From JBBIVP01 sp037439705 [NCBI: bacterium] (GTDB lineage Bacteria; JBBIVP01), in assembly GCA_037439705.1 (NCBI GenBank), contig JBBIVP010000150.1, forward strand, positions 1 to 5,217: DNA of 5,217 bases, given 5' to 3'. A program made the translations under genes and the position numbers. Below are positions 1-4,408 of this stretch, piece after piece. Numbering within the stretch: the stretch's first letter is position 1; the number at the start of each line of letters is the position of its first letter. Under the pieces are notes generated by a model that had not been told where the DNA came from, searched no databases, and was given only the letters and a program-made list of their open reading frames with translations.

Positions 1-1184
1 GGAAGCGGTGTGTCCGTAGCGCTATAGGATTGCATATCGAGGGGCAGAAATTTTTGAAGCGATTTCTTAAAGATGTATTTAGTCTTTCTGACTCTTACCT
101 TTAAAGAAGATGTAAGGCACGCGGAAAATTCTACAAGATGATGGTCAAGAATTGGAGTTCTAACTTCTACAGAGCAAGCCATTGCCATCTTATCCGCCTT
201 CATAAGAATGTCTTCAGCAAGCCAGATTTTTATGTCAGCATAAAATACTCTGTCAAGAAAGTTCAAATTGTTCACCCTAACTTCTGCTATTGAAAGATAA
301 ATTTCCTGGGGTTTTGAATTGAAACTCGGACAGAGGAGTTTCATCTCGGTATCGTTAAAATATGATAACCAGACAAAATTTCTAACCACAGGATTTTTAT
401 CAGTAACCGCAAGCCGTTTCATGTATTCAGGAATTTTTCCAGGCAGAAAATGGAATGTTGAGATTATTTCAAAAGCATTTCTTCGTAAAGATGATGGTAG
501 CACATCCAAAAAATGAGCAATTTTATGAAGAATGTAACGGGGATACCCACCAAATATCTCATCTCCTCCCTCTCCGCTTAACAATACCTTTATCCCCATT
601 TCGCGGGCTTTTTTAGAAATTAAAAACACAGGAACACAGGCTTCATCTGCTATTGGTTCATCTAAATGCCATATAAGAAGCGGCAAATAAGATAGGTCTT
701 TTTCTTGAAGGATTATCTCGTTGTGATTTGTCCCAAAGAATGAAGCGACTTTTTTAGCATATACTCTTTCATCATACAATGAATTTTCAAATCCTATGAT
801 GATTGTATTTATGTTAGATGTGCTTTCAGCCATTAAACCAACGATGGCACTTGAATCAATACCACCAGATAACATCACTCCTAAGGGAACATCGCTTATA
901 AGTCTGTATTTAACAGATTCCCTCAAAAGTATCCCGAGCCTCTCTATCACATCATTTTCATCCGCTGGATTTTTTAGAGAAAAATTTATATCCCAGTATC
1001 TTTTGAATTTTATATCTCCTTCACAATAAATAAGCATATAGCCGGGAGGAAGTTTGTTTATTCCTTTGAACAGCGTTATCTCGCCTGGAATATATTGAAG
1101 GTGAAGATAAAGGTTGAGAGCATCTTCATTAACTTCAGTTTTTGTGCTACTGGCCGACAGAATTGCCTTTATTTCTGAAGCGGG
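1..1184 (-). pseudogene. asnB: Asparagine synthetase (glutamine-hydrolysing), synthetase domain only; 5'-truncated and open at the left edge
   Basis: An open frame of about 394 codons encodes the ATP-dependent amide-transfer half of AsnB-type enzymes. The full enzyme converts aspartate, glutamine and ATP to asparagine; relatives amidate sugars in glycan loci. Reading on the minus strand, visible motifs in order are ASEIKAIL (from 1181), YIPGEITLFKGINKLPPGY, the PP-loop LSGGIDSS (about 872-849), LLSGEGGDEIFGGYPRY (about 580-535) and VRTPILDHHL (about 160-130). The N-terminal class II glutaminase domain, which should begin Met-Cys and span roughly 190 residues, is absent. The frame meets a TGA at 1187-1185 directly before the conserved part, and the first in-frame ATG is deep inside, at 1037. 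Family resemblance also fades after KKSLQKFLP, from about position 38 to the edge. The gene is almost certainly a remnant, cut next to the element at 1190. Its original substrate cannot be told. Confidence 0.9.
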
Positions 1185-1189
1185 TCATT

Positions 1190-1207
1190 GGTTAAGAGAT
1201 AGTATCC
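1190..1207 (+). repeat. Left terminal inverted repeat
   Basis: The sequence GGTTAAGAGATAGTATCC is the exact reverse complement of 1489-1506. It begins 8 bp from the last position that still matches asparagine synthetase. An 18-bp perfect inverted match at about 280 bp spacing is not expected by chance in a window of this size. Confidence 0.85.
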
Positions 1208-1338
1208 ATTTGTATGAGAATTTATATTTTGTTTAAGAGGGAAGAAGATTTTAATTTGGGGTGTGAGGTGGTGGATGATGATGAAGGGGAAAAGTGCGAT
1301 GGATTTAGGGAGATTGAGGGGAAAGGGTTTCCTACTTT

Positions 1339-1425
1339 CATGGGCTTCCTCCTTCTATCATTTTCATAAGATATCCTGATGGGGGAAGCCCCCTATTTCA
1401 ACGATTTTCTTTATCATCTTATGAA
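1339..1425 (-). promoter_or_regulatory. Nested hairpins with a possible ribosome-binding-site mask inside the element
   Basis: On the minus strand, TTCATAAGAT (1425-1416) pairs perfectly with ATCTTATGAA (1372-1363), enclosing a second hairpin of five G-C pairs (1393-1381). Downstream lies GGAGGAAGCCC followed at once by ATG (1341-1339). That Shine-Dalgarno segment (1352-1342) can pair at 10 of 11 positions with GGGCTTCCCCC (1391-1381) from the inner hairpin. Two exclusive folds are therefore possible, one exposing and one hiding the start site. Insertion sequences such as IS10 and IS50 use comparable folds to block translation from read-through transcripts. That this is the role here is inference. 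The frame opened by the ATG is only 39 codons and Ser/Pro-rich. Confidence 0.45.
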
Positions 1426-1488
1426 GAGCCTCCTTATTTTCAGGAACATAAACATTCTTCCATCTCCTTTTCCATACCTTACACCTCC

Positions 1489-1506
1489 GGATACTATCTC
1501 TTAACC
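1489..1506 (-). repeat. Right terminal inverted repeat
   Basis: The sequence GGATACTATCTCTTAACC is the mate of the repeat at 1190-1207. It ends 17 bp before the -35 box of the ATPase promoter, so the element lies directly upstream of that transcription unit without overlapping its core promoter. Confidence 0.85.
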
Positions 1507-1523
1507 CGAAAGAGCAAGAATGA

Positions 1524-1552
1524 TTGACAATTTATCTGATATTTCTTAAAAT
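1524..1552 (+). promoter_or_regulatory. Sigma-70-type promoter of the ATPase gene
   Basis: TTGACA at 1524-1529 is a perfect -35 box. It is followed by a 17-nt spacer and TAAAAT at 1547-1552, which matches the -10 consensus at five of six positions. Transcription should start near 1559, giving a leader of about 38 nt before the ATG at 1597. The promoter lies between the right end of the 317-bp element and the gene, on native flank rather than in the element. Confidence 0.75.
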
Positions 1553-1596: not shown

Positions 1597-2859
1597 ATGG
1601 ATAAAGAACGTGTAAAAGACTATCTCGCTGAATATATGAAAAGGGACCTCCCGTGGCTTGTTGAAAGGGAACTGGAGGTTAGTGAAACGGAGAGAAGGAT
1701 AATTACCATAATTGGACCGAGGAGAGCAGGAAAAACCTATTATCTTTATCAATTGATGAAGAAAAACAGGGAAAGGCCGCTTTATCTTAACTTTGAAGAT
1801 ACAAGACTGATTGACCTTTCTTTTAAAGAAATAAGGGATTTAATAAGGATGTATAAAGAAATCACCGGGAGGGAACCACTTTACCTGTTTTTTGATGAGG
1901 TTCAGAACATTGAAGGTTGGGAAATAGCACTGAGGGAACTACTTGACACCGGAAGGTTCAGAATTTTTGTTACAGGCTCTTCTTCGAAATTATTAAGTAG
2001 AGAAATAGCCACATCTTTGAGGGGAAGAACCCTCACCTATATACTTCTTCCTTTCAGTTTTTCTGAGTTCTTAAAAGCAAAAAATATCTCCCTTCAATTT
2101 ATTTCAAAAGATGATGAAACCACAGTTAAAAAAGAACTGAGGGAGTATTTAGAGTTCGGAGGGTTTCCCGAGGTGGTTCTTGAAAAAGAAAAGGAAAAGA
2201 TACTGAAAGAGTTCTATGACCTTATTCTTTTTAAAGATATCGTTGAAAGGCATAACCTGAGGAACATAAGCCTTGCAAAATTCCTGCTCTCCTTCTTTGC
2301 ACAGAATTTCTCATCCATGATGAGCGTCAACAAAATTCTGAATTTCTTTAAATCGCAGGGTAAAAAATTTGGCAGGAACACCCTTTACGATTATATTGAC
2401 AAAATTCAGGATACTGTCGCTGTTTTCTTCCTCAGCAGATATTCTACAAAGATATATACAAGAGAAAGTTGGCCAAAAAAAATCTATCTTGCTGACACAG
2501 GTATTTCAAGGGTTGTAAAATTTTCTCAAGATATGGGGAGATTGATGGAAAATGTTGTGTTTCTTGAACTCCTGAGGAAAACAAACAAGCATCCTTTGAT
2601 GGAAATTTATTTTTTGAACATTAACAATAAAGAGGTGGATTTCCTGCTCAAAAAGGGTGAGGAGATAAGTTTGATTCAGGTATGTTATGAGATAGAAGGC
2701 TTTAAAACCAGGGAAAGGGAGATAAAAAGTTTGCTCAAAGCAGGTGATGAGTTAAATTGCAAAAATCTTCTTATCCTTACATGGGATTATGAAGGTGAGG
2801 AAAAATTCAGGGAGAAAAAGATAAACTTCATTCCTCTCTGGAAGTGGCTTCTTTTTTGA
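1597..2859 (+). CDS. AAA_14/DUF4143 family ATPase
   Basis: A complete 420-residue protein, the usual length for this family (COG1373). N-terminal P-loop domain: Walker A GPRRAGKT at residues 40-47, Walker B LYLFFDEVQ at 95-103 (D100, E101), a sensor-like FVTGSSS at 124-130, LRGR at 141-144 as a probable arginine finger, and LPFSFSEFL at 151-159. The linker carries EFGGFPEV (186-193). The C-terminal DUF4143 half has NTLYDYIDKIQDT (261-273), KIYLADTGI (295-303), MENVVFLELL (317-326) and EVDFLL (346-351), then LIQVCYEI (359-366). This half resembles a restriction-endonuclease fold, but position 363 is Cys where a catalytic Lys would sit, so nuclease activity is doubtful. The WDYE...PLWKWLL tail recalls archaeal members, from memory. 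No signal peptide or membrane segment is seen, so it is probably cytosolic. Its role is unknown. ATG 1597 is the only start; an in-frame stop lies at 1576. It has its own promoter. Confidence 0.93.
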   Translation: MDKERVKDYLAEYMKRDLPWLVERELEVSETERRIITIIGPRRAGKTYYLYQLMKKNRERPLYLNFEDTRLIDLSFKEIRDLIRMYKEITGREPLYLFFDEVQNIEGWEIALRELLDTGRFRIFVTGSSSKLLSREIATSLRGRTLTYILLPFSFSEFLKAKNISLQFISKDDETTVKKELREYLEFGGFPEVVLEKEKEKILKEFYDLILFKDIVERHNLRNISLAKFLLSFFAQNFSSMMSVNKILNFFKSQGKKFGRNTLYDYIDKIQDTVAVFFLSRYSTKIYTRESWPKKIYLADTGISRVVKFSQDMGRLMENVVFLELLRKTNKHPLMEIYFLNINNKEVDFLLKKGEEISLIQVCYEIEGFKTREREIKSLLKAGDELNCKNLLILTWDYEGEEKFREKKINFIPLWKWLLF

Positions 2860-4232: not shown

Positions 4233-4244
4233 CTTAACTTTTCC

Positions 4245-4304
4245 ATATTTTTTTTATTTTATTTTTTTTGTTTGGATAGGGGGGTGTTTTGTTGTGTGGG
4301 GGGG
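4245..4304 (+). other. T-rich tract followed by G/T-only tract with G6 and G7 runs
   Basis: Positions 4245-4274 are almost entirely T with occasional A and G. Positions 4276-4304 then carry a six-G run (4279-4284) and a seven-G run (4298-4304) joined by G and T only. The minus strand here is essentially A and C. Such skew can promote melting, a two-layer G-quadruplex or polymerase slippage. Homopolymer lengths in this tract may also be sequencing-sensitive. Confidence 0.5.
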
Positions 4305-4408
4305 TTAAACGGCGTTCCTTAAAACTTACTTCCAGGAATGCTGATTGAAAAAATATAACACACTCATAACTCTTTTATTTCCTCCTCAAATAATGTTTTT
4401 TGAAAATC

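Follow-up and report, generated by a model that had tools for sequence, protein, structure and literature searches.

What kind of element is enclosed by the two inverted 18-bp repeats of this contig, and how did it come to lie between a truncated asparagine synthase gene and the promoter of an ATPase gene? The window (i.e., the whole stretch of 5,217 nucleotides that was analyzed) carries GGTTAAGAGATAGTATCC at 1190–1207 on the plus strand and at 1489–1506 on the minus strand, forming an exact inverted pair (18 of 18 positions) with 281 bp between the two copies. A scan of the window with up to three mismatches recovered these two sites alone. The pair is not expected by chance, since 200 dinucleotide shuffles gave no match.

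Extent and composition of the element

The initial annotation described a 317-bp element with exact 18-bp terminal repeats. The repeats are indeed exact, but these borders fall 7 and 8 bp short: comparison with relatives extended the element to 1183 on its 3′ side and to 1514 on its 5′ side, giving a length of 332 bp (1183–1514, minus strand). Its orientation was determined from the sequences outside the repeats. Outside the 5′-side repeat (1489–1506) lies CTCTTTCG (1507–1514, minus strand), the outer 5′ end of an insertion sequence (IS), which is mostly TTCTTTC[AC] in the family, and outside the 3′-side repeat (1190–1207) lies GGTCATT (1183–1189, plus strand), the outer 3′ end, with the family form GGTC[ACG]TT; each directly precedes its 18-mer. 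The right end of the element is therefore the 5′ end and the left end the 3′ end, and the two match the 5′ and 3′ signatures of the family separately.

From the 5′ end, the layout consists of a leader reading frame, a hairpin, a start codon, ∼150 bp and the 3′ end. The leader frame (SFGLRDSIRRCKVWKRRWKN...EIGGFPHQDIL; 1364–1513, minus strand) stops in the loop of the hairpin (GGGCTTCC/GGAAGCCC; 1342–1391, minus strand), which covers part of the Shine-Dalgarno sequence AAGGAGG and is moderately better than its shuffles (z −1.7). The following ATG-started frame of 39 codons (1222–1341, minus strand) is not a transposase, and its start occupies the position of the ATGA with which the transposase begins in three copies from other genomes (L028, L127 and L129; see below). 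The element carries no transposase gene, as had been noted at the outset; the parts retained are the 5′ end, leader frame and hairpin on the right (minus strand) and the 3′ end on the left. The middle ∼150 bp, from the leader to the 3′ end, gave no convincing alignment to the IS. A likeness of this part to the C-terminus of the transposase was seen by eye only, and no claim is made for it. Rfam gave no matches at its gathering thresholds. No target duplication is present at the window copy, where CTTG adjoins the 5′ border and CGCT the 3′ border.

Genes and promoter beside the element

Just beyond the right end of the element lies a promoter, which was absent from the initial annotation. Reading outward from the 5′ border, CAAGAATGA is followed by the −35 box TTGACA (1524–1529, plus strand; first base at position 10 outside the border), a 17-bp spacer, the −10 box TAAAAT (1547–1552, plus strand) and the ATG, at 1597, of a gene for an AAA_14-DUF4143 ATPase (1597–2859, plus strand). 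The ATPase had no relative in IMG/VR, and its best relative in 142 genomes of the Aminicenantes class (Aminicenantia is our own label; the records say Candidatus Aminicenantes) was 46% identical.

On the other side of the element, an asparagine synthase fragment (about 3–1181, minus strand) lacks the N-terminal ∼159 residues. Its homology starts at the element border: position 160 of the 517 positions of the profile corresponds to residue 2 of the frame, a few bases from 1183, and the fragment aligns to a solved amidotransferase from residue 162 of the latter. The missing first half of the gene was not seen among the other frames of the window. The remaining genes of the window encode a glycosyltransferase, which matched plasmids in many genera, all below 60% identity, and a methyltransferase. 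Between genes, at 4240–4310, a T-rich stretch is followed by a G-rich one (GGGGGGTGTTTTGTTGTGTGGGGGGG).

The proposed parent insertion sequence

The exact 18-mer occurs ten times in the MAG JACIYJ (Candidatus Aminicenantes) and once in JAKPCG. The ten JACIYJ copies are alike inward and represent the 5′ ends of a single repeated element, at which the contigs are broken; they read through the 18-mer into the leader and, if long enough, into the hairpin and the ATG of a protein. With up to two mismatches, the 18-mer was found in 25 of the 142 genomes of the class, in up to 13 copies per genome versus at most one per strand for a reversed control, and some of the 25 genomes, with one weak match each, may represent chance. 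The commonest form among the matches listed is GGTTAAGACATGGTATCC. A DNA search of the phylum returned end-sized matches alone, in 2 of 396 genomes. The 5′ ends of the family mostly read TTCTTTC[AC]GGTTAAGACATGGTATCCAG, and the 3′ ends, inward, about GGTC[ACG]TTGG[CT]T[AG]A[GT]ACATGGTATCC.

Two candidates were set aside. The seven IMG/VR contigs that match the 18-mer (L012–L018) represent a single phage-like locus, share their flanks and have one site apiece; these matches are probably due to chance. TGTCAA was rejected as a true IS481-like terminus: the bases that separate it from TTCTTTC vary among near-identical copies and, at element-free sites, are part of the host sequence.

The initial annotation had named a longer copy with a transposase between the ends as confirmation of a mobile family. 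Such copies, with ends of the same kind, occur in other genomes, namely L028 and L129 (1282 bp each) and L127 (1279 bp). Judged by their sequences, these are putative autonomous elements with ends like those in the window. The transposase frame of L028 (395 aa) extends past the 3′ end of the element, so that this copy may not be intact. The L028 protein, the only one scored, matched the NCBIfam model NF033577 (transpos_IS481) over residues 21–323 with 156.6 bits (E 9e-46), below the curated cut-off of 224. Its Pfam matches were HTH_28, HTH_29, HTH_32, HTH_23 and rve_3, and no Mutator-like transposase model of Pfam or NCBIfam was matched. The catalytic triad is likely formed by D154, D230 and E273, with 42 residues between D230 and E273. 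The transposase had no match in phages, no relative in IMG/VR and none in the PDB at 0.01. Among plasmids, 74 records matched, all below 60% identity, the best being from Thermovirga.

A 4-bp target duplication flanks four of the eight complete copies (L127, L129, L109 and L132) and is absent from the others (L028, L081, L082 and L134). Two contigs of genome G442, C113 (L173) and C80 (L103), seemingly hold opposite sides of a single insertion, for which a 5-bp duplication was reconstructed by reading. When the flanks of L129 were joined minus one duplication, four of 14 other genomes gave an alignment spanning the junction, with the central 73–78 bases free of gaps. In the equivalent search for the site without the L109 element, the promoter-side flank alone aligned, in 7 of 14 other genomes.

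Leader frame and hairpin

The half of the element next to 1489 had been likened to an IS 5′ leader, and the relatives bear this out, since they carry the same frame from the 5′ border and the same hairpin over the Shine-Dalgarno sequence. In 12 of 12 copies from five genomes (L028, L127, L129 and nine others), a frame of 61–62 residues within the first ∼190 bases of the IS extends uninterrupted from the 5′ border and ends in the ATGA with which the transposase begins; these copies were hand-picked from 20, seven of them from one genome, with L108, L146 and six near-duplicates omitted. The frame passes through the inverted repeat and is conserved (e.g., ...EKAGLPPLK...), beginning with SF[RG]L or SCRL in the relatives and reading SFGLRDSI...VWKRR in the window. 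The other two frames of the leader contain stops in the four copies for which they were printed. No obvious start codon for the leader frame was found in the window or in the relatives.

In the strong hairpin, the stem is formed by GGGCTTCC(TCC) and (GGA)GGAAGCCC, and the Shine-Dalgarno sequence lies within it; z is −5.3 in L028. Among the 20 copies that have GGAGG...ATGA beyond position 110, at least four of the five GGAGG bases were paired in the minimum-energy fold of 12; the other eight comprise six of a single G001 form in which GGAGGAGG is doubled, and L108 and L146, which look unrelated. The hairpin would hide the ribosome-binding site of the transposase, and translation of the leader probably opens it.

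A distant relative of the IS, with no annotated gene, is located on a Thermovirga lienii plasmid (L038:1620–2940). Its transposase is 37.7% identical over 68% and is readable in two frames, while its hairpin is made of other letters (GGCGGGTACCTC/GGAGGTAACCCGCC; z −5.1). At its putative border, assigned by eye, the sequence GTCAA-N9-CTCTTT is found, with TTGACA-N16-TAAAAT reading outward at the same distance. A hairpin-like leader was also seen by eye at L041, a distant transposase in G155.

Deletion derivatives and remnants

The initial annotation considered an internal deletion of a larger element to be plausible, and internally deleted relatives do exist. L109 and L132 lack the part from ∼134 to 579 of the full copies, with an identical junction, and L134, L081 and L082 have other internal deletions relative to the full copies. 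The window copy is of the same type as these forms, and its interpretation as an internally deleted IS is supported by the sequence comparison.

Whether the 332-bp form ever moved is a separate matter. It could be a relic in place, left by a full IS that landed upstream of the ATPase promoter and then lost its middle, such that the short form never moved itself; we lean slightly against this account, although it remains a serious contender. Remnants dominate in the relatives: of the 90 5′ ends followed inward by 1300 bp or more, 83 lack a 3′ end (a further 40 are too close to a contig end to be judged), so that most of the short forms in the relatives are remnants rather than MITEs. The flanks of the window copy, lacking a duplication and adjoining a broken gene, would also fit such a history. 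In contrast, L109 and L132 show one deleted form at two sites of a single genome, each with a duplication. Moreover, the two 18-mers are identical in the window and different in all eight complete copies of the relatives (13 to 16 of 18 positions alike), whereas the sites of an old relic would be expected to drift.

With up to three mismatches, 164 5′ ends were detected versus 49 3′ ends in the same 22 genomes, using patterns of unequal strictness for the two ends. Throughout loci L081–L140 and L145–L224, promoter-side remnants far outnumber whole copies. At L131:498–554 and L239, 5′-end-like sequence begins no more than a few bases beyond a 3′ end, perhaps reflecting repeated insertion at the same promoter.

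Insertion upstream of promoters

The insertion sites were compared in 22 genomes chosen for carrying the repeat or the transposase, 16 of which contributed the 164 places; beyond the loci obtained earlier, 86 of the matches listed were taken and 80 retrieved. The patterns used to collect the 5′ and 3′ ends contained no TTGAC. 5′ ends with less than 45 bp of outward flank were excluded, and 147 raw 5′ ends were reduced to 130 by removing those whose flanks agreed at 28 or more of 40 bases. The resulting 130 sites are distributed over 16 genomes, all of a single class, and the few doubtful ones (second matches in L028, L155 and L131) were counted as misses.

The core of the sigma70 −35 box, TTGAC, begins 8–11 bases outside 109 of the 130 distinct 5′ ends, and at base 9 in 97 of them. 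At the same distance outside the 3′ ends it was found in 2 of 49, and the background is 0.001 per position. The rule is broken by 21 of the 5′ ends. By genome, it holds in 22 of 25 sites in G225, 15 of 17 in G001, 10 of 12 in both G442 and G443, 10 of 14 in G440, 9 of 12 in G444 and 33 of 38 in the remaining ten combined. The window copy, with TTGACA beginning at position 10, fits this rule.

A preference for the letters TTGAC alone, rather than for promoters, would be consistent with the information at the 5′ flanks, which is concentrated in TTGAC, and with L129, which lies within a coding frame (judged by eye, that of an HD-domain-like protein in the element-free genome) and is flanked by TTGACC. 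We nevertheless think this unlikely in view of what follows the motif. A −10-like box (at least 4 of 6 positions of TATAAT, spacer 15–19) comes after TTGAC in 102 of the 109 cases, versus 31 of 109 in a shifted control and 97 of 465 for the other TTGACs of the same loci; for TANNNT at spacers 16–18, the corresponding numbers are 56 of 109, 8 of 109 and 25 of 465. The −10-like boxes are commonest at spacers 17 and 18. Outward ORFs of at least 40 codons that begin within 220 nt were found in 106 of 118 5′ flanks versus 32 of 49 3′ flanks, whereas inward-reading open frames are similar on both sides (66 of 118 and 25 of 49, respectively). Survival bias could add to this picture, because insertions in genes are lost.

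Element-free sites were found for two G442 copies, up to the border in two of nine genomes each (G179 and G187; G233 and G179). In these, the host sequence runs on from precisely the border position, and the −35 box is in place. At the L129 site, none of four element-free relatives has TTGAC at that place; this site indicates that a promoter context is not obligatory and that the box is not kept in relatives at every target.

Preferential insertion at promoters would explain in a simple way why promoter-side remnants are so numerous in these genomes. The excess of 5′ remnants likely arises from selection against deletions through the 5′ end, which would damage the promoter. Possibly, the promoter may also make use of the remnant.

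Proposed history of the window copy

We regard it as highly probable that the locus, taken as a whole, represents a deleted IS481-like copy that was inserted on the promoter side and later lost its other flank. The 332-bp element would be a non-autonomous, internally deleted copy of an IS481-like IS, whose full form (1279–1282 bp) encodes a DDE transposase behind the leader frame and hairpin. This IS inserts with a 4-bp duplication (5 bp in one reconstructed case), mostly 8–9 bp upstream of a sigma70 −35 box and with its 5′ end towards the promoter, which leaves the gene and its promoter intact. The target rule and the duplication are shown by comparison of the copies, and the manner in which the protein finds its site is inferred; the question raised is whether the transposase reads TTGAC itself or a bound RNA polymerase. 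Oriented insertion just upstream of a promoter would allow the element to multiply with little harm, and would put its end where upstream regulatory DNA lies.

The window copy lies in this manner beside the promoter of the ATPase gene and, since both 18-bp sites are kept, could be moved by a transposase acting in trans. Subsequently, an adjacent deletion or recombination with another copy, both described as causes of such outcomes (PMC11708052), may have eliminated the opposite flank together with the first half of the asparagine synthase gene; the broken gene and the missing duplication point to such an event, and either process would explain both. That the segment is a host regulatory palindrome or attenuator, as its intergenic position, its structure and the lack of any known encoded protein might suggest, is very improbable, since the same kind of ends elsewhere flank a transposase gene, with duplications and element-free sites.

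Comparison with known systems

Like bacterial MITEs (e.g., MITEAba12), the window element is short, has inverted ends, lacks a transposase and is kin to an IS. It differs from them in the absence of a target duplication at this copy. The full-length IS with which it shares its ends come from other genomes than that of its host.

The likeness to the IS481 family (with the IS1202 group) lies in the match of L028 to the IS481 model and in the combination of HTH domains with an rve/DDE fold. Prokaryotic IS481 elements have TG(T)...(A)CA termini and about 35 residues between the second D and the E. In contrast, the ends of the present family are TTCTTTC...GACC, as set by duplications and element-free sites, and its D and E are separated by 42 residues; a leader frame with a hairpin, promoter targeting and a score below the curated cut-off are further differences. 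The termini of IS481EU are given as TGT...ACA, and the target duplications of IS481 elements as 2–15 bp, most being 6 bp (PMC10045372), compared with 4 bp here. By title and abstract, no report of promoter or TTGAC targeting by IS481-type elements was found in the open-licence literature, and a survey of IS positions, where it treats preferred distance to genes, singled out ISLre2 and ISKra4, not IS481 (PMC9208149).

Promoter targeting has been called an unusual property among prokaryotic transposases (PMC3942029). As described in the same source, TnGBS inserts in an oriented manner 15–17 bp upstream of sigmaA promoters, ISLre2 and ISKra4 also target promoters, and all three are Mutator-like. 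The family described here resembles them in its oriented insertion upstream of sigma70/sigmaA promoters (109 of 130 5′ ends, 2 of 49 3′ ends). However, the distance to the −35 box is 8 bp in the family and 9 bp in the window, as opposed to the 15–17 bp given for TnGBS and its kin; the promoter-facing end is the 5′ end here and the right repeat in most of the TnGBS-type elements covered there; and the transposase, with its HTH and rve domains, is unrelated to the Mutator-like enzymes. A broader proposal would be that an IS481-like family, represented in the Aminicenantes, in one Synergistota copy recognized by eye and in the host of the window, independently evolved oriented insertion 8–9 bp upstream of sigma70 −35 boxes, and that the leftover promoter-side end persists as the upstream promoter part of host genes; we consider the chances of this to be evenly balanced. 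If it is true, convergent promoter recognition could be tested directly with an unrelated transposase that acts at a different fixed distance.
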